NCBI RefSeq assembly: GCF_035658495.1
Contig: NZ_CP141944.1
Coordinates: 3,188,001 to 3,252,000 of the forward strand
Direction of reading: 5' to 3'
Source: Novosphingobium sp. RL4
GTDB taxonomy: Bacteria; Pseudomonadota; Alphaproteobacteria; Sphingomonadales; Sphingomonadaceae
DNA length: 64,000 nucleotides
A program made the translations under genes and the position numbers. Shown here one piece after another: positions 6,757 through 44,615 of this stretch (positions are counted from its first letter, which is position 1; each line of letters opens with the position of its first letter). The notes under the pieces were generated by a model, which made no database searches, had not been told where the DNA came from, and saw only the letters and a list, made by a program, of their open reading frames with translations.

Positions 6757-8571
6757 ATGAGCAATCTCAGCCCGGTGGTCGCCCGCGTGACTGATCGCAT
6801 TATCGAGCGGTCGAAGCCCAGCCGCGAACGCTATCTCGCCATGATCGAACGCGAAGCCGGCCGTCATTCGGACCGTTCGTTCCTTTCGTGCTCCAACCTC
6901 GCGCATGGTTTTGCGGCCAGCGGCGAAGACAAGCCCGCCATCGCCACCGGCAAGGCGATCAACGTCGGCATCGTCACCGCTTACAACGACATGCTCTCGG
7001 CCCATCAGCCCTATGGCCGCTATCCCGAGCAGATGAAGCTCTACGCCCGCGAAGTAGGCGCTACGGCACAGGTCGCAGGCGGCGTGCCCGCCATGTGCGA
7101 CGGCGTGACCCAGGGCTTCGACGGCATGGAACTCTCGCTGTTCAGCCGCGACACCATCGCCCTCTCCACCGCCGTCTCGCTGAGCCATGCGATGTATGAC
7201 GGCATGACCCTCCTGGGCATCTGCGACAAGATCGTGCCGGGCCTGGTCATGGGCGCGCTGCGCTTCGGCCATCTTCCGGCGGTGTTCATCCCCTCCGGCC
7301 CGATGCCCAGCGGCATCTCCAACAAGGAGAAGCAGAAGGTCCGCCAGCTCTATGCAGAGGGCAAGGTCGGCCGTGAGGAACTGCTGGCCAGCGAAAGCGC
7401 CTCCTATCACTCGGCGGGCACCTGCACGTTCTACGGCACCGCCAACTCCAACCAGATGATGATGGAGATGATGGGTCTGCACATGCCCGGCGCCGCCTTC
7501 GTGCCGCCCGGCACCTCGCTGCGTCAGGCCGTGACCCGCGCCGCCGTCCACCGCGTGACCGAGATGACCCGCAAGGGCGACGATTTCCGCCCGATGGGCC
7601 ACGTCGTGGACGAGAAGGCGATCGTCAACGCCATCGTCGGACTGCTCGCCACCGGCGGATCGACCAACCACGCGATCCACCTGCCCGCCATGGCCCGCTG
7701 CGCCGGCATCCACATCGACTGGCAGGACTTCGACGAACTGTCAGGCGCGGTGCCGCTCATCACCCGCGTCTATCCCAACGGTTCGGGCGACGTGAACCAC
7801 TTCCACGCCGCCGGCGGCATGGGCTGGGTGGTGCGCGAGCTGCTCGATGCAGGGCTGGCCCATGAGGACATCCTCACCGTCTCCAGCGGCGGCATGCGCG
7901 CCTATGCCACTGAGCCCACGCTCGACGATGGCGAACTCAAGTGGAAGCCCGCGCCTGCCGTCAGCGGCGATGACGCCATGCTGAGCACGGTGGCCAAGCC
8001 CTTCCTGCCCGACGGCGGCATGCGCCTCGTTTCCGGCAACGTGGGCCGCGCCACCTTCAAGACCAGCGCGGTCGATCAGGAGCGCTGGACCATCGAGGCG
8101 CCGTGCCGCGTGTTCGAGACGCAGGAAGCCGTCATCAACGCCTTCAAGGCGGGTGAGTTGGACCGCGACGTGGTGGTGGTCGTGCGCCATCAGGGCCCGC
8201 GCGCCAACGGCATGCCCGAACTGCACAAGCTGACCCCGCCGCTCGGCGTGCTGCAGGATCGCGGCTTCAAGGTGGCGTTGGTCACTGACGGGCGCATGTC
8301 GGGCGCTTCGGGCAAGGTTCCCGCCGCGATCCACGTCACCCCGGAAGCGCTGGCCGACGGCCCGATCGCCTATCTGCAGGACGGCGATATCGTGCGCCTC
8401 TCGGCGGAAGACGGCACGCTTTCCACCACGGCGGACCTTTCCGGTCGCTCGCCCGCCCCGCTGCCCGCGCCTGCCGAAGGCATGGGCCGCGAACTCTTCG
8501 CGATGTTCCGCATGAATGCGGGCGGCGCCGAACAGGGCGGCTCCTCGATGCTGGAGGTCGCGGGACTGTGA
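6757..8571 (+). CDS. edd: 6-Phosphogluconate dehydratase
   Basis: Entner-Doudoroff enzyme converting 6-phosphogluconate to 2-keto-3-deoxy-6-phosphogluconate (KDPG); 604 aa, full length for the IlvD/Edd family. Cysteines expected to hold the Fe-S cluster are in [18 protein letters not shown] and [37 protein letters not shown] is a family signature near the C-terminus. A GCAGGAG ribosome site precedes the ATG. The stop overlaps the glk GTG start by 4 bp, which implies translational coupling. It heads the tightly packed edd-glk-eda-PEPC-like block. Confidence 0.95.
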
Positions 8572-33879: not shown

Positions 33880-34044
33880 ATGCGGACCGAGGACCTGACT
33901 TTCCAAGACACCGACCTGCCGACCGCGCTGCGCGCCGCCACGGCAGAGCTCGCAGGCTTCGACGCCTTCGCCCCTGCTTTCGCCCAGGCCTTCGCGCTCA
34001 GCGCGGATATCGTTATTGTTTCCGAAAGCGAAGCGCGTGGCTGA
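33880..34044 (+). CDS. Possible small leader protein upstream of the bacteriophytochrome gene
   Basis: A 54-codon frame starting MRTEDLTFQDTDLPTALRAA and stopping at 34042-34044, just before the bphP ATG at 34049. It is Ala-rich, acidic, and unlike any family I know. Its position, closely abutting the next start, fits a leader peptide or translational coupling. It could also be chance coding in GC-rich DNA, and its ribosome site is weak. Confidence 0.3.
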   Translation: MRTEDLTFQDTDLPTALRAATAELAGFDAFAPAFAQAFALSADIVIVSESEARG

Positions 34045-34048
34045 CGGC

Positions 34049-36598
34049 ATGCATCAGGTAAACCTTTCCACCTGCGACCTCGAACCGATCCACATCATCG
34101 GCCGCATCCAGAGCTTCGGCTGGCTTCTGTCGTTTTCGAGCGACTGGATCATCAATCACGTCTCTCTCAACTGCGAAACCCTGTTCGGCGTTGCGCCAGC
34201 CGACATGGTGGGCGTGCCCGCCACGCAGTTCCTCTCGCCCGAGGCGATGCACGACGTGCGCACGCGCCTCCAGGTTCTCGGCGGCGCCGCCACTGTAGAG
34301 CGCCTCTTCGAAGTGGACCTGCTTGGCGACGGACGGCTGTTCGACATGGCGGTCCATGCCTCCGGCCGATCCTATGTGCTGGAGATCGAACCGCATGAGG
34401 GCGGGCGCCGCCGCGATTTCGTGAGCTACGTGCGCCCGATGATCGACCGCCTGCGCCAGTCCAGCTCGATCGAGCAACTCTGCGCCAGCGCTGCCCGGCA
34501 CTTGCGCGGCCTCACCGGGTTCGACCGCGTGATGGTCTACCGCTTCGAGGGCGACGGGGCCGGCGAAGTCGTGGCCGAAAGCCTCAACGGCATGGTCGAC
34601 AGCTTCAAGGGCCTGCATTTTCCCGCCTCCGACATTCCCGCCCAGGCACGCCGGCTCTACACCCGCAACCTGCTGCGCATCATCAGCGACGTGGACGACC
34701 CCACCGTGCCGATCTACCCGGCGACCGACCCGAACGGCGATCCGCTGGACCTGTCGATGTCGGGCCTGCGGGCGGTCTCTCCGATCCATGTCGAATACTT
34801 GCGGAACATGGGCGTGAAGGCGTCGATGTCGGTCTCGATCATGCGACGCGGCAAGCTCTGGGGCCTGATGGCCTGCCATCACTATTCTCCCCTCACACTG
34901 TCCTATTCGGTCCGCACCGCGAGCGAGCTGTTCGGCGAATTCTTCGCCTATCTGCTGGAGCAGAAGGAAACCGACTTCGCGCTGGAGCAACGCTCCGCCT
35001 CGATGCGCCTTCACGACGAGATGATGGCCCGCGTGGCCTCCGGCGGATCGCTGCTCGAAGCCTTCGAGGATTTCTCCGAATCCATCGGCCGCGTCATCCC
35101 GTTCGACGGGGTGATCGGCTGGGTGGATGGCCGCTTCATGAGCCATGGTACGACGCCGAGCGAGGCGCAGTTCTCGCTGCTCGCCCGCTTCCTCAACACG
35201 GCCGGAGCAAGCACGGTGTGGTCCACCGATTCGATCGGCTCGCTGTTCGAGCCCGCACGTGAATGGACGGACAGGGCCGCCGGCCTGCTCGCGCTGCCGG
35301 TCAGCCGCACCCCGCGCGACTATATCGTGCTGTTCCGCCGCGAGCAGCTTCGCGAAGTGAGCTGGGCAGGAAATCCCGAGAAGGCGATCGAACTCGGTCC
35401 GAACGGTGCCCGGCTCACCCCGCGCAAGAGCTTCGAGATCTGGAAGGAAGAACGGCGCGGGCAATCGCGCCCCTGGACGGAGGAGGAAACCCTCGCCGCC
35501 GATGCCCTGCGCATCACCTTGCTCGAAGTGGTCCTCCGGCTCGCCGACGCCGCCCATATCGAGCGCGAACAGGCGACCCGCCAGCAGGACATGCTGATCG
35601 CGGAACTCAACCACCGCGTCCGCAACATCCTCAACCTGATCCGGGGTCTGGTTACCCAGAGCAAGGAAGGCGCCCGAACGATCGACGATTTCGCCGAGAT
35701 CGTCGGCAGCCGCATCCACGCCCTTGCCCGCGCGCACGATCAGGTGACGCAGAAGGACTGGACACCCTCGTCGCTCTACGACCTGATCCGCACCGAAACC
35801 GCCGCCTATGTCAGCGACGGCGCCGATCGCGTCGTGATCGACGGACCCGACGCCCTCATCGCGCCCAGCGCCTTCACGACACTGGCGCTGGTGTTCCACG
35901 AACTGATGACCAACTCGTGCAAGTACGGGGCGCTCTCGGACTCGCGCGGCACGGTCACCGTTTCGCTCAATCGCGGCGAGGACGGATCACTGGAGATTGA
36001 CTGGCACGAATCCGGTGGCCCCGCAGTAAGGACACCCACCCGGCGCGGCTTCGGCTCCACCATCATCGAACGGACCATCCCGCATGAACTGGGCGGCTCG
36101 GCCTCGGTGGTCTATCCGGTGGAGGGGATGAAGGCCCTGTTCCTGCTCCCCGCCGATCACGTCGCCAGTTTCGAGACGCCCAGTGCGGCCGAGCGCGAAC
36201 CCGCGCCGCATGTGCCCGAAGCCTCGGACCTTGCCGGCACCTTGCAGGACGGCATCGCCCTGATCGTCGAGGATAACGTCATCATCGCGATGGAGGCGGA
36301 AGACGTGCTGCGCGACCTCGGCTTCGGCGACTGCCGCATCACCGGTTCGGTGCAGGACGCCATGGCCCTTGTCGAAGGCAACGGCGTTTCCTTCGCGATG
36401 CTCGACGTCAATCTCGGCAAGGATACCAGCGAGCCGATCGCCCACGCCCTTCACGAGCGCGGCGTGCCGTTCATTTTCGCAAGCGGCTACGGCGAACGCG
36501 CGTTGATGGCCGGAGATTTCAAGCGCGTGCCGGTCGTGACCAAGCCTTATGGCGAACGCGACGTGCGGGCGGCTATTGGGCGATTGCGGCGAGGCTAG
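34049..36598 (+). CDS. bphP: Bacteriophytochrome hybrid kinase (PAS-GAF-PHY, HWE kinase, receiver)
   Basis: 849 aa red/far-red photoreceptor. Cys9 (NLSTCDLEPIHIIGRIQSFG) is the expected biliverdin attachment site. The GAF domain holds FPASDIPAQARRLYTRN and SPIHVEYLRNMGVKASMSVSI. A PHY domain covers ~330-500. The kinase has the HWE-type H-box IAELNHRVRNILNLIRGL and VFHELMTNSCKYGAL. Residues ~740-845 form a receiver with phospho-Asp in FAMLDVNLG and FIFASGYGER, close to the FAT-GUY motif. The start is chosen to fit the family N-terminus; in-frame GTG 34037 and TTG 34016 are alternatives. No haem oxygenase gene is adjacent. An EcfG promoter lies upstream. Confidence 0.9.
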   Translation: MHQVNLSTCDLEPIHIIGRIQSFGWLLSFSSDWIINHVSLNCETLFGVAPADMVGVPATQFLSPEAMHDVRTRLQVLGGAATVERLFEVDLLGDGRLFDMAVHASGRSYVLEIEPHEGGRRRDFVSYVRPMIDRLRQSSSIEQLCASAARHLRGLTGFDRVMVYRFEGDGAGEVVAESLNGMVDSFKGLHFPASDIPAQARRLYTRNLLRIISDVDDPTVPIYPATDPNGDPLDLSMSGLRAVSPIHVEYLRNMGVKASMSVSIMRRGKLWGLMACHHYSPLTLSYSVRTASELFGEFFAYLLEQKETDFALEQRSASMRLHDEMMARVASGGSLLEAFEDFSESIGRVIPFDGVIGWVDGRFMSHGTTPSEAQFSLLARFLNTAGASTVWSTDSIGSLFEPAREWTDRAAGLLALPVSRTPRDYIVLFRREQLREVSWAGNPEKAIELGPNGARLTPRKSFEIWKEERRGQSRPWTEEETLAADALRITLLEVVLRLADAAHIEREQATRQQDMLIAELNHRVRNILNLIRGLVTQSKEGARTIDDFAEIVGSRIHALARAHDQVTQKDWTPSSLYDLIRTETAAYVSDGADRVVIDGPDALIAPSAFTTLALVFHELMTNSCKYGALSDSRGTVTVSLNRGEDGSLEIDWHESGGPAVRTPTRRGFGSTIIERTIPHELGGSASVVYPVEGMKALFLLPADHVASFETPSAAEREPAPHVPEASDLAGTLQDGIALIVEDNVIIAMEAEDVLRDLGFGDCRITGSVQDAMALVEGNGVSFAMLDVNLGKDTSEPIAHALHERGVPFIFASGYGERALMAGDFKRVPVVTKPYGERDVRAAIGRLRRG

Positions 36599-39364: not shown

Positions 39365-40045
39365 TCAGGCAGCGACCGCTTCGCGGGCTTCTGCAATCTC
39401 GTCGGCGTTGGCGATCTTGACCAGTTCGGCGAAGAACGCATCGACCGCTTCACCGGTAAGGACGAAGTTATGGCGGAAATCGGGGAGCTGGCCGGATTCG
39501 ATGACCTTCGACAGCATCGAGCGGGCACGGCAGATCCGGCTCTTCACGGTGCCAAGCGCGATGCCGCAGATGTGAGCGATCTCTTCATAGGAGAGATTGC
39601 CTGCCGCCACCAGGATCAGCGCTTCGCGGTAGCTGTCGGGAATGGCGGTCAGCGCGCGCAGGACATCCGCCAGTTCGACGGCGCTTTCCTGGCTCGCCTC
39701 GGCGCGCAGGATACGCTCCGCCGCCACTTCGTCATATTCGCCGTGGAAGCGGGCGCGGCGCGCTTCGCTGTAGAAATGATTGCGCAGGATCGTGAAGGTC
39801 CAGGCCTTGAAGTTGGTACCCGCTGCATAGCGATGACGCGCGGCCCATGCGCGGAGCATGGCTTCCTGCGCAAGATCGTCCGCCCGGTCACGGCAACCGC
39901 AAAGACCGCGCGCGAAAGCGCGAAGATGCGGGGCCACTTCGGCAAGGGCGCGCTTGAAATCGCGGTCGCTGAGGGCTGCCACTTCCACAGGCACGGTCGT
40001 CGCTGCGTTATCGGCGCCGGTTCCGGCTTCGGTTGTTGCGGACAT
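39365..40045 (-). CDS. ECF sigma factor, second EcfG-like paralogue
   Basis: 226 aa. Region 2 covers ~30-95 (APHLRAFARGLCGCRDRADDLAQEAMLRAWAAR, AWTFTILRNHFYSEARR). Region 4 covers ~125-175 (IPDSYREALILVAAGNLSYEEIAHICGIALGTVKSRICRARSML). A ~45-residue C-terminal extension follows that the nepR-linked EcfG lacks. The ATG at 40045 has GGAGGG 7 nt upstream. An exact EcfG promoter lies 50 bp upstream, suggesting a feed-forward loop. No anti-sigma gene is adjacent; NepR may serve both factors. Confidence 0.88.
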   Translation of the reverse strand: MSATTEAGTGADNAATTVPVEVAALSDRDFKRALAEVAPHLRAFARGLCGCRDRADDLAQEAMLRAWAARHRYAAGTNFKAWTFTILRNHFYSEARRARFHGEYDEVAAERILRAEASQESAVELADVLRALTAIPDSYREALILVAAGNLSYEEIAHICGIALGTVKSRICRARSMLSKVIESGQLPDFRHNFVLTGEAVDAFFAELVKIANADEIAEAREAVAA

Positions 40046-40094
40046 CGTGTTTCCCTCCATGGCTGATCACGGCTCGTGATCCGTCAGTTGGGCA

Positions 40095-40120
40095 AACGCG
40101 ACTAATGCACACAAAGTTCC
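40095..40120 (-). promoter_or_regulatory. EcfG-type promoter of the sigma-factor gene
   Basis: Minus strand GGAAC-N17-CGTT, exact consensus; the -10 is 50 bp before the ATG at 40045. Confidence 0.82.
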
Positions 40121-40282
40121 CGAAACCGCACTGAACGCCGTTCAGAAGCACCTGCCACACGATGGAACGAGGCCCCGGCGCGACCGATCGCGCAATCACG
40201 CATTCCCAGCGCACCGGAGCAGGCTGAAAATTTCCGTGGCATGCAGATTTTTTGGCGACCGCCGGGAACAACCATGCTCCGG

Positions 40283-40378
40283 AAACTTTGAGGCCTCCGT
40301 TCACTCTGCGGTGAACGGAGGCCTCCGGGATCGGGTCACCACCGGTTTGCGGGGGGTGGGGGAGCCAGTGGTGATACC
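40283..40378 (-). ncRNA. Probable GSR-controlled small RNA with C-rich loop (GsrN-like)
   Basis: Starts about 6 nt after an exact EcfG promoter (40384-40408). Stem 1 pairs TCACCACTGG with CCGGTGGTGA (one U-G; plus positions 40365-40374 and 40336-40345) and exposes the 19-nt loop CTCCCCCACCCCCCGCAAA. Stem 2 is a perfect 15-bp hairpin (40290-40304/40311-40325, loop of 6) followed by a short AAAGTTT tract, fitting a 3' terminator. The total is about 95 nt. The layout (GSR sigma promoter, C-rich loop able to pair with ribosome sites, GSR neighbours) matches what is known of Caulobacter GsrN. Homology to GsrN is inferred from architecture. Confidence 0.72.
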
Positions 40379-40381
40379 GTT

Positions 40382-40408
40382 GGAACGTGCATTGCCAGAC
40401 TTGGTTCC
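40382..40408. promoter_or_regulatory. Overlapping divergent EcfG promoters (small RNA and phyR)
   Basis: GGAAC-N17-GTTCC. Minus strand: GGAAC (40408-40404)-N16-CGTT (40387-40384), exact, pointing at the small RNA. Plus strand: GGAAC (40382-40386)-N16-GGTT (40403-40406), one mismatch, pointing at phyR ~150 bp away. Each -35 overlaps the opposite -10. Confidence 0.75.
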
Positions 40409-40556: not shown

Positions 40557-41351
40557 ATGTCCGTCTCTGACCAGATCGCCATCCAGCTGCCCTATCTGCG
40601 CCGCTATGCCCGCGCGCTGACAGGTTCGCAGCATTCAGGCGATGCTTATGTCCGCGCCACTCTCGAGGCCGCGCTGGCCGACAAGACGCTGCGCGACGAT
40701 ATCGCGCGCAGCCGCGCCGCACTCTACGCCGCGTTCACCCGCATCTGGTCGACCAGCCATGTCGACGATCCGGGTCTGTCCGGCGAAGGCGGCCAGCACG
40801 AGCAGGCTGCGCAGACCCGGCTTGCGATCGTTGCCCCCACGCACCGGCAGGCCCTTCTGCTGACCACGGTGGAAGAATTCTCCCGCGAGGATACCGCACG
40901 CATCCTCGACGTGACGCCCGACGGCGTGGATGCGCTGGTTGCCCAGGCCATTCTCGAGATCGAGAGCGAAAGCACCACCGAAGTTCTCATCATCGAGGAC
41001 GAGCCGCTCATTTCGATGCAGCTTGAAGGGCTCGTCACCGAACTCGGCCACCGCGTAGTCGGTACGGCCGCAACCCATGCCCAGGCGGTGGAGATCTTCG
41101 AGCGCTCGCCCGCCGGTCTCGTCCTGGCCGATATCCAGCTCGCCGATGGCAGTTCGGGCATCGAGGCAGTGGAAGACCTGCTCAAGTTCGGCGACGTGCC
41201 GGTGATCTTCATCACCGCCTATCCCGAACGCCTGCTCACCGGGGAACGTCCGGAACCGACCTATCTGGTCACCAAGCCGTTCCAGGAAGCCACCGTGCGC
41301 GCGGCGATCAGCCAGGCCCTGTTCTTCGGATCGAGCAAGCCGCTCGGCTGA
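40557..41351 (+). CDS. phyR: General stress response regulator PhyR
   Basis: 264 aa anti-anti-sigma regulator. Residues ~1-130 are a sigma-like domain (QIAIQLPYLRRYARALTGSQHSGDAYV, FSREDTARILDVTPDGVDALV). Residues ~140-260 are a receiver (VLIIEDEPLISMQLEGLV, phospho-Asp in VLADIQLADGSSG, VIFITAYPERL, TKPFQ). When phosphorylated it binds NepR and frees EcfG. GAGGAA precedes the ATG. A one-mismatch EcfG promoter lies upstream and a strong terminator follows. Confidence 0.95.
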   Translation: MSVSDQIAIQLPYLRRYARALTGSQHSGDAYVRATLEAALADKTLRDDIARSRAALYAAFTRIWSTSHVDDPGLSGEGGQHEQAAQTRLAIVAPTHRQALLLTTVEEFSREDTARILDVTPDGVDALVAQAILEIESESTTEVLIIEDEPLISMQLEGLVTELGHRVVGTAATHAQAVEIFERSPAGLVLADIQLADGSSGIEAVEDLLKFGDVPVIFITAYPERLLTGERPEPTYLVTKPFQEATVRAAISQALFFGSSKPLG

Positions 41352-41924: not shown

Positions 41925-43583
41925 TTATCGCCGGTCGTTTCGCAGCGTGAATTCGCGGCTGGCCCGTACCGGCACCTTGAGTCGGCATTCCACCCCGCTC
42001 GGCTTGAACCGCAGGTCCACGTCCGACTTGAGTTCGTGCGCCACGATCTTCTCGATCAGATCTCGCCCGAAGCCGCGCTTGGCCGGTTCCACCACCGGCG
42101 GACCGCCTTCTTCGCGCCAGTCGATCTCGGCAAGTTCCGGGCTGACCAGGATCCAGTGAACGTGGATCCGCCCGCCTGTCGTGCTCAGCGCACCGTACTT
42201 GGCCGCATTCGTGGCCAGTTCGTGGATGGCGAGCCCCAGCGACATGGCGTCGTTAGGCGCCAGCCGAACTTCCGGTCCCGACATTTCCACGTGGCTTTCG
42301 TTACCCTCCATGTAGGGCGCCAGTTCCGATCGCACGACATCGCCCAGCACGGCATGTGTCCAGTCGGACTGGGAAAGAAGGTCATGCGTGGCCGAAAGCG
42401 CGCGAATGCGGGCGGTCAGGCTTTCGGTGAAATCGTCGATATCGGTGGCGCGCCTGCGGGTGAGCGCGGCGATGGACAGGACGTTGGCCAGAGTGTTCTT
42501 CACGCGGTGGTTCAGTTCGCGTGTCAGCGAATTGCGGATCGCCGCCTGGCTCTGGAGCCACTCCAGCACCATGCGGTCTTCCGCCGAACGGCGCGTGATG
42601 AGCCGCCCGATCGCCATGACCATAAGCGAGGCCAGCGCACCGAAGAACAGGGTGATCCGCGAAGCGGTGGAAAGCACGCCGACCTTGCGATCACTGATGA
42701 CAACGACCCATGAGTGGCTGCCCACGTCGATCCGCCGCTCCATCGTCGGCCCGGCGGAACCGTCCGCCCGGCGCTCCGCCAGCAGTTTGTCGGGCGCCAC
42801 CTCGCCGTCGTAGATCGCCACGTCGATATTGTTGTTGCGATAGAGCTCGCTGGCCGATGTCAGGAAAGTCTCCGCCCGGAATGGGCTGAACACGAAACCC
42901 TTCACCTGCCGGCCCGATCGCCCTGACAGGACCGGCATGTAGATCAGGAAACCGGCAGCCTCGGCATTGCTCTCGTCTTGCACCAGATGAACCTTGCCGG
43001 ACGCCACCGGCTTGCCCAGCTTCATCGCTCGTTCCATCGCCGCGCGGCGCACTTCCTCGGAGAACATGTCGTAGCCGAGCGCCTGCCCGTTACCGTTGAT
43101 GTCCGGTTCGAGATAGACGATCGGCGCCGCCGTGGTCCGGTCGAAGGTCGGCCTGGGGTAGACAAGGAAATCGGCCCGGCCCGCCGCCTGTATGGACATC
43201 TCCATTTCCGACAGGCGATCCACCGCCACGATCGGCGCCCAGCCCATGCCGAGCGAGCCGTAAAGGTCGCCCTTGCCCTGGAGATCCTGCGCGAAGGCGC
43301 GGAACTGGTCCTCGCTCACCTCGCGCTGGGTGGCGAAGAGAGCGGCGCCCGCGCGCAGCAGCGCGATATTCTCGGTCGTGCGGCGTTGCAGCGCGGAAGC
43401 GATCTCGGTGAGATTGCGATCCAGCTCCACCTGCCGGGTCTGCCGGTCAGCCCGCTCGATCGCCATGACCGACACGGCCGTGGTGATCGAAGCGATAATG
43501 AATAGCAGGAACGGCCAGCCGCGCGGATACTTGTGGAACCAAGCCTGCTTCTGGACCCTATCGAGCAGAGCCTGATCAATCAC
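41925..43583 (-). CDS. CHASE-domain HWE sensor histidine kinase, probable GSR kinase (PhyK/Pak type)
   Basis: 552 aa. TM1 is at ~22-42 (WPFLLFIIASITTAVSVMAI), a periplasmic CHASE domain at ~75-270 (FRAFAQDLQGKGDLYGSLGMGWAP, YGDMFSEEVRRAAM-like region), and TM2 at ~305-325 (ITLFFGALASLMVMAI). The cytoplasmic HWE kinase has ELNHRVKNTLANVLSIAAL, AIHELATNAAKYGAL and the Trp in EIDWREEGGPPV. GTG start at 43583. Position between phyR and nepR-ecfG strongly suggests it controls PhyR phosphorylation; the CHASE ligand is unknown. Confidence 0.88.
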   Translation of the reverse strand: MIDQALLDRVQKQAWFHKYPRGWPFLLFIIASITTAVSVMAIERADRQTRQVELDRNLTEIASALQRRTTENIALLRAGAALFATQREVSEDQFRAFAQDLQGKGDLYGSLGMGWAPIVAVDRLSEMEMSIQAAGRADFLVYPRPTFDRTTAAPIVYLEPDINGNGQALGYDMFSEEVRRAAMERAMKLGKPVASGKVHLVQDESNAEAAGFLIYMPVLSGRSGRQVKGFVFSPFRAETFLTSASELYRNNNIDVAIYDGEVAPDKLLAERRADGSAGPTMERRIDVGSHSWVVVISDRKVGVLSTASRITLFFGALASLMVMAIGRLITRRSAEDRMVLEWLQSQAAIRNSLTRELNHRVKNTLANVLSIAALTRRRATDIDDFTESLTARIRALSATHDLLSQSDWTHAVLGDVVRSELAPYMEGNESHVEMSGPEVRLAPNDAMSLGLAIHELATNAAKYGALSTTGGRIHVHWILVSPELAEIDWREEGGPPVVEPAKRGFGRDLIEKIVAHELKSDVDLRFKPSGVECRLKVPVRASREFTLRNDRR

Positions 43584-43837: not shown

Positions 43838-44032
43838 ATGGAGTCAAAGTTGAATCAGCCCGAAGGACATGGCGAGCCGGCACAGCCCGGTCTGCCGCCT
43901 GAAGTCCGCAAGGACGGAGAACCCGGCTGGGCCGGGGGGCTGAGGAAGCTGTACAACTCCGTGGTGGACGAACCGCTTCCGGACAGCTTCAGGGATCTTC
44001 TCAAGAAGCTGGACGGGGCGGACGATGCCTGA
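43838..44032 (+). CDS. nepR: Anti-sigma factor NepR
   Basis: 64 aa. It binds EcfG in unstressed cells and is removed by phosphorylated PhyR. The conserved core GLRKLYNSVVDEPLPDSFRDLLKKL matches NepR helices 1 and 2, with a disordered Pro/Glu-rich N-terminus as usual. It overlaps the ecfG start by 8 bp. Confidence 0.93.
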   Translation: MESKLNQPEGHGEPAQPGLPPEVRKDGEPGWAGGLRKLYNSVVDEPLPDSFRDLLKKLDGADDA

Positions 44033-44615
44033 CCGCCAGTCTTCGCACCCCGATCAGCCCACCGCACGCAAGTCCGACCCCAGCGCAAGCCGCCCAGAGG
44101 ACGAGGCTTTCCGCCGGGAACTGCTTGGCGTCCTGCCGCATTTGCGCGCTTTCGCACGCGGCCTTTCCGGTCGCCCGGATTTCGCTGACGATCTGGTGCA
44201 GGAGGCCGCGATAAAGGCCTGGACCGCGCGTGAACGCTACACGCCCGGCACCAACATGCGAGCCTGGACATTCGCGATCCTGCGCAACCACTACCTGTCG
44301 GAACTGCGCAAGAGCAAGCGCCAGACCGACCTTGACGAAGGCGCGGTTGAGCGGATGCTGGTGATGGACGCGGACCAGGAAGGCCCGCTTCACCTCGGCG
44401 ACATGGAAACGGCATTGCAGAAACTCGCCCCCGAACGGCGCGAGGCGGTGCTGCTCGTGGGTGCGTCCGGCTTCAGTTACGAGGAAGCGGCCGACATCTC
44501 CGGTTGTCCGATCGGCACGATGAAGAGCCGCGTCGCCCGCGCCCGCGCGGACTTGGCGCGCATGCTCGACGGCGAAGTGGAACTGGTGGACGTGGGCGGG
44601 CGCCGGAACCTGTAA
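44025..44615 (+). CDS. ecfG: General stress response sigma factor EcfG
   Basis: 196 aa ECF sigma factor. Region 2 is at ~30-100 (LPHLRAFARGLSGRPDFADDLVQEAAIKAWTAR, RAWTFAILRNHYLSELRK). Region 4 is at ~125-185 (LAPERREAVLLVGASGFSYEEAADISGCPIGTMKSRVARARADL). Tight linkage to nepR identifies it as the principal GSR sigma factor reading GGAAC-N16/17-CGTT promoters. Autoregulation is suggested by the promoter at 43685. Confidence 0.94.
   Translation: MPDRQSSHPDQPTARKSDPSASRPEDEAFRRELLGVLPHLRAFARGLSGRPDFADDLVQEAAIKAWTARERYTPGTNMRAWTFAILRNHYLSELRKSKRQTDLDEGAVERMLVMDADQEGPLHLGDMETALQKLAPERREAVLLVGASGFSYEEAADISGCPIGTMKSRVARARADLARMLDGEVELVDVGGRRNL

Follow-up and report, generated by a model that had tools for sequence, protein, structure and literature searches.

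The DNA analysed here, a 64-kb stretch of the Novosphingobium sp. RL4 genome (the window), contains a general stress response locus in which a predicted small RNA gene lies between phyR and a second gene for an EcfG-like sigma factor. phyR (40557..41351, plus strand; Pfam PhyR_sigma2, PhyR_sigma-like and Response_reg) is divergent from the RNA, and its product is up to 90% identical to proteins of Novosphingobium relatives. The sigma factor gene, here called ecfG2 (39365..40060, minus strand; Pfam Sigma70_r2 and Sigma70_r4_2), follows the RNA on the same strand. A preceding reading of the DNA letters alone (henceforth the sequence-only reading) had named these two neighbours, and the Pfam annotation agrees. 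Absent from it were three further genes situated 1 to 4 kb from the RNA, namely those for a CHASE-HWE histidine kinase (41925..43583, minus strand; assigned by Pfam and synteny), for the anti-sigma factor NepR (nepR, 43838..44032, plus strand; Pfam NepR, 2.4e-13) and, directly after nepR, the primary ecfG (44025..44615, plus strand; Pfam).

The RNA gene itself, about 90-100 nt in length, is placed at 40280..40378 on the minus strand by its fold and by a covariance model (R1, see below), with both ends predicted: the start about 6 nt past the CGTT element of the promoter, the 3' end after the second hairpin. Just upstream, at 40384..40408 on the minus strand, is an exact EcfG-type promoter, GGAAC-N16-CGTT, one of only two such sites in the window, for which shuffled sequences give an expectation of 0.31. 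Hairpin 1 (40336..40374, minus strand) is a 10-bp stem with one G-U pair and carries a C-rich loop of 19 nt, CUCCCCCACCCCCCGCAAA (40346..40364, minus strand), the presumed pairing site. It is joined by a linker (40326..40335, minus strand), whose GATCC is invariant in a 14-sequence alignment, to hairpin 2 (40290..40325, minus strand), a perfect 15-bp stem and probable terminator with a weak T-run in this copy. The sequence-only reading had described the promoter, both stems and the loop, and all of them were found as it had described them. The 103-nt stretch folds with -50.3 kcal/mol (z -6.9), a value that none of 200 shuffles equalled, and hairpin 1 folded alone has a z of -2.86. Six open reading frames of at least 20 amino acids overlap the region, but the loop lengths among relatives cover all three residues modulo 3, making protein coding unlikely; the possibility of a small protein was rejected on these grounds, in keeping with the earlier statement that no protein gene fits. 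A known Rfam family was rejected as well: Rfam release 15 at gathering score gave a single tRNA in the window and nothing at the small RNA, the loci of nine relatives gave no match, and a relaxed scan of the segment 39900-40600 gave chance-level matches only.

According to a blastn-type search, 14 of 61 related genomes contain the stretch; these 14 are all from the same genus as the window, and in each the copy adjoins phyR and retains the promoter box. R1, built from these copies, begins downstream of the -10 box; the promoter is thereby kept out of the model and can serve as an independent check. Of 296 sampled genomes of the order, 94 have an R1 match; they represent 24 of 79 genera, all within the family to which the window belongs. 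Matches outside the window's closest kin (type B) have the stem and the linker in common with it and differ in the loop (GAGACCCCCCCUCCCGUCC); their -10 box is CATT, and a T-run is usually present. A further form (type C) occurs near phyR in Sphingomonas loci, where an EcfG promoter accompanies two hairpins, one with a C7 loop and a long one whose loop is C-rich as well. It was seen about 2.1 kb upstream of phyR in the loci L093-L125 (23 named loci), and R2, the model made from it, has matches in 81 of the 296 genomes. A single genome (G317) has matches to both models, the R2 match being weak and located elsewhere in the genome. Run with R1 and R2, both of which exclude the promoter, the covariance-model search over Sphingomonadales that the sequence-only reading had proposed as a check retrieves the RNA in 174 of the 296 genomes sampled. 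This and the other census counts are lower bounds, since filters were stricter in any search of more than 40 genomes. Among 190 genomes of the class, a sample that may or may not include Caulobacteraceae, R1 has two matches, both in the same family as the window, and R2 likewise has two, the first in that family and the second, a borderline one (E 1e-3), in another. The borderline sequence (locus L146 of genome G452, positions 1501-1590, from another family) is a type-C-like double hairpin with C loops and has no GGAAC upstream.

We also searched 80 phyR loci of named genomes. R1 gave a match in 38 of them (E <1e-7) and R2, applied to 42, in a further 23, for a joint total of 61 of 80. None of the 11 loci titled as other orders has a match to either RNA model, and eight sphingomonad-titled loci also have none. 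Two of these eight, which both models miss (L082 near 3579 and L085 near 4866), show by eye a diverged EcfG promoter with a C-loop hairpin by phyR. With filters off, the best R1 match in type C loci falls on the RNA in 14 of 14 cases, covering the whole RNA in 10 (E 0.005-0.17). The reverse search gave mixed results, since in L021 and L001 the best match lay outside the RNA, and these comparisons are only suggestive of a relationship of the two types by descent. A search of freely readable papers found none on such an RNA in sphingomonads.

Both stems covary in relatives. In an alignment of 87 type A/B sequences (A6; duplicates L015, L047 and L166 left out) and one of 53 type C sequences (A7; near-duplicates L127, L135 and L139 and the truncated L159 left out), each fitted to covariance models, two-sided changes occur at 20 of 26 pairs, and 90.7% and 97.0% of the cells pair, respectively. 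None of 500 shuffles reached the value of A6 or A7, and sliding the pairing partner lowered pairing to 31-49% in A6 and 32-43% in A7. Structure-free MAFFT alignments show two-sided changes at 12 of 26 (type A/B) and 15 of 26 (type C) pairs. Type B frequently leaves the innermost base pairs of hairpin 1 unformed, in 30 to 40 of 86 rows. The C-rich loop is kept too: a run of at least five C is present in the 5' loop of all 87 type A/B and 51 of 52 type C sequences (L146 was dropped from this count), i.e. 138 of 139 overall. The loop of hairpin 2 has such a run in all 52 type C sequences and in none of the 87 of type A/B. The length of the C-run in the loop varies from 4 to 13; it is the composition that is conserved, not the exact sequence.

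The promoter, left out of both models, is conserved at a fixed distance: a GGAA[C/T] box lies no more than 2 nt from the expected position in all 87 type A/B (R1) and 51 of 53 type C (R2) aligned copies, together 138 of 140, the exceptions being L146 and L150. Spacers are mostly 16 nt long, with -10 boxes CATT, CGTT, GGTT and TGTT; GGAAC combined with each of CGTT, CATT, TGTT and GGTT is described as transcribed in vitro by EcfG1 and EcfG2 of Sphingopyxis granuli (PMC7083833). With an E of at most 1e-30 as the criterion, PhyR is present in 198 of the 296 genomes; RNA and phyR are found together in 174 genomes, the RNA alone in none, phyR alone in 24 and neither in 98 (Fisher p 8e-56, uncorrected for relatedness). 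Within the window's own genus, ten of 16 sampled genomes have both, five have neither and one has phyR with no detected RNA. In all 94 genomes with type A/B, no more than 5 kb separates the RNA from phyR, and the two are divergent in 93. Of the 53 type C copies for which a place of phyR is listed, 44 are equally close to it, every one of them divergent; for the other nine, phyR is listed on a different contig or at a great distance. No RNA candidate was found within the 1.5-kb flanks of five RNA-negative phyR loci (L184-L188). Judged from these genomic comparisons, a small RNA of the stress locus driven by EcfG is very likely indeed to exist as the predicted transcript.

The obvious object of comparison is GsrN, described by Tien et al. 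(2018, PMC5869019) as a small RNA of the general stress response in Caulobacter crescentus that works through a C-rich 5' loop pairing with a G-rich sequence of katG. According to the same account, GsrN is about 100 nt long, has an EcfG-class promoter (GGAAC/CGTT) and a terminator hairpin, and its gene is usually situated near ecfG-nepR-phyR in Caulobacteraceae. Most of these traits have their parallels here, where the EcfG-type promoter lies just upstream, the predicted fold exposes a C-rich loop in the 5' part and general stress response genes are close by; hairpin 2, conserved and covarying, may take the place of the terminator. Since this comparison is with the published description of GsrN and not with its true sequence, 'sphingomonad counterpart of GsrN' is to be understood as an analogy. 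We also scanned the 190 class genomes for an EcfG promoter combined with GCCCCCC; the reversed control looked similar by eye to the 14 matches obtained, so the pattern is uninformative on Caulobacter GsrN. There are differences as well: R1 and R2 find nothing in sampled other families except the one borderline match, no katG signal is seen here, and the Sphingomonas-type copies carry C-rich loops in both hairpins. PMC5869019 gives the BLASTn hits of GsrN as confined to Caulobacteraceae and reports that Erythrobacter litoralis, which belongs to Sphingomonadales, has no apparent gsrN-like gene. In our list, which does not include E. litoralis itself, the RNA is present in four of four Erythrobacter-titled loci.

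GsrN-like RNAs of Rhizobiaceae and Brucella have been predicted, as set out in PMC5869019, from an EcfG promoter, a position at the stress locus and a C-rich 5' loop. A structure answering to this description lies near 7100 in an Agrobacterium locus (L112), where a C-rich hairpin accompanies an EcfG-type promoter some 2 kb away from phyR; it is perhaps the RNA that these authors predicted there. Neither R1 nor R2, however, matches L112 or the loci L108 and L113. Among other RNAs of Alphaproteobacteria, the CcsR or cuckoo RNAs are stress-linked and have pyrimidine-rich, anti-Shine-Dalgarno-like loops; they belong to other sigma factors and other loci. Rfam scans of the window and nine relatives give no such match.

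The reading that we favour, with a probability of roughly three in four, is that of a stress RNA of about 95 nt made under EcfG and pairing through its C loop with G-rich mRNAs. It is built on the promoter, the fold, the covariation, the conserved loop and the linkage and co-occurrence with phyR, all of them observed, and from these we infer transcription, EcfG dependence, mRNA pairing and the direction of the effect. PhyR would free EcfG from NepR, and RNA polymerase with EcfG would make the RNA, whose 5' hairpin would present the C-rich loop and whose 3' hairpin would end and shield it. The loop would then pair with G-rich stretches of mRNAs and alter their translation or stability. In this way the RNA would give the general stress response a post-transcriptional arm, comparable to that formed by GsrN in Caulobacter. 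Several points weigh against this explanation, namely the 24 of 198 phyR genomes with no detected copy, the lack of a run of four T in the window copy, the negative results for katG leaders and loop-complementary sites given below, and the fitting of alignments A6 and A7 to the models.

As for the mode of action, a C-rich loop of the GsrN kind suggests action of the same kind, and by this analogy pairing with G-rich mRNA is the probable function of the loop, provided that the RNA exists. katG was tried as the target and rejected, as its leaders show no consistent G tract: a G4 run lies near the guessed start in 11 of 30 loci (10 of 26 RNA-positive and one of four RNA-negative ones), and one of the two katG genes of the window's own genome, the one examined, has no G4 run in its leader. 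Genome-wide, sites complementary to the loop number 184 against 175 in the reversed control, i.e. they are not enriched, and the sole perfect one is the RNA gene itself. The proposal of the sequence-only reading, a GsrN counterpart acting on purine-rich ribosome sites, stands in part: the data support a stand-alone RNA with an EcfG-type promoter, covarying stems, a C-rich loop and phyR linkage, and the stem changes and the loop are evidence which that reading had itself asked for, whereas action at ribosome sites has no target signal to go with it and the likeness to GsrN is one of analogy. Separately, the best cluster of sites apart from the RNA gene (L220, C1:1151650-1151699 of the same genome) comprises three G-rich repeats in tandem whose sequence is complementary to the loop. 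It lies near the beginning of a coding region, by eye resembling a di-haem cytochrome c peroxidase, and is a single lead noticed after the fact. The loop might alternatively act on a protein or RNA chaperone as a sponge rather than through mRNA pairing. A loop conserved in composition and not in exact sequence, with its variable C-run, and the lack of enrichment of complementary sites would suit such a role, but GsrN, the closest studied RNA, is described as pairing its C-rich loop with katG (PMC5869019) and a candidate protein for the loop is wanting, and we regard the sponge as unlikely.

A different question is whether the RNA is simply the 5' leader or an attenuator of ecfG2. In the window copy, hairpin 2 is followed by CAAAGTTT, with no long T-run and three T after CAAAG, and a simple terminator scan did not report it; among the aligned copies, 62 of 87 of type A/B and 22 of 53 of type C have at least four consecutive T behind this hairpin. 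With such a run missing here and in many other copies, termination at hairpin 2 is not certain. ecfG2 lies within 1.2 kb downstream on the same strand in the window lineage and altogether in 18 of 87 type A/B copies (some loci being counted with a 1.5-kb flank only), and 12 of these 18 lack a run of four T, against 13 of the 69 others (Fisher p 2e-4, among related sequences). This contrast allows read-through into ecfG2, which is thus possible in the window lineage. ecfG2 nevertheless has an EcfG promoter of its own (40095..40120, minus strand), which the sequence-only reading had called exact and which is real but has a 17-nt spacer. The sigma gene is moreover about 700 nt away in two type A copies, and no ecfG2 lies within 1.2 kb downstream in 69 of 87 type A/B and in all 53 type C copies. 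Since relatives outside the window lineage do not have ecfG2 downstream, the RNA need not be a sigma-gene leader, in agreement with the sequence-only reading; for the family a leader role was rejected, and we hold it to be very improbable overall. None of five relatives checked has a gene of a Pfam family close downstream on the RNA strand. Upstream of the RNA, type C relatives have an HWE kinase and nepR as neighbours and some type B loci a Crp-like regulator, and the genes facing the RNA from downstream are, by eye only, a receiver protein (type B) and TatC (type C). Least credible of all is a purely DNA-level or structural element, such as a bidirectional terminator or a repeat, that sits by a chance promoter: hairpin 2 is indeed a strong symmetrical inverted repeat, but the hit lists show one model match per genome, and the fixed promoter distance, the conserved loop and the covarying hairpin 1 all argue against it.

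Returning to the EcfG-made RNA that pairs with mRNA, one can put forward a broader and decidedly speculative picture, in which a sphingomonad-wide RNA family with an origin separate from that of GsrN forms part of the core of the stress response and captures G-rich mRNAs in two forms. The one-C-loop form may be that of Novosphingobium and the Erythrobacteraceae type, the two-C-loop form that of the Sphingomonas type. In the Novosphingobium branch, a weakened terminator would let the stress promoter read into a newly placed second sigma gene, creating a feed-forward loop through ecfG2. The sphingomonad stress response has been studied as a transcriptional one only, with, for instance, the Sphingopyxis EcfG regulon counted over coding genes (PMC7083833), and a conserved RNA of the EcfG type at its control locus would bring post-transcriptional control into the stress response of a large environmental order. 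If the favoured reading is true, control of the GsrN type extends to an order whose one checked species was reported, in PMC5869019, as being without an apparent gsrN-like gene. The exact gene, promoter and loop are now defined for deletion or mutation, and species of the same genus that naturally have neither phyR nor the RNA are available for comparison. Near the stress locus, at 34016-36598 of the window, there is also a gene for a phytochrome-HWE kinase (PHY, GAF and HWE_HK domains), a possible light input.
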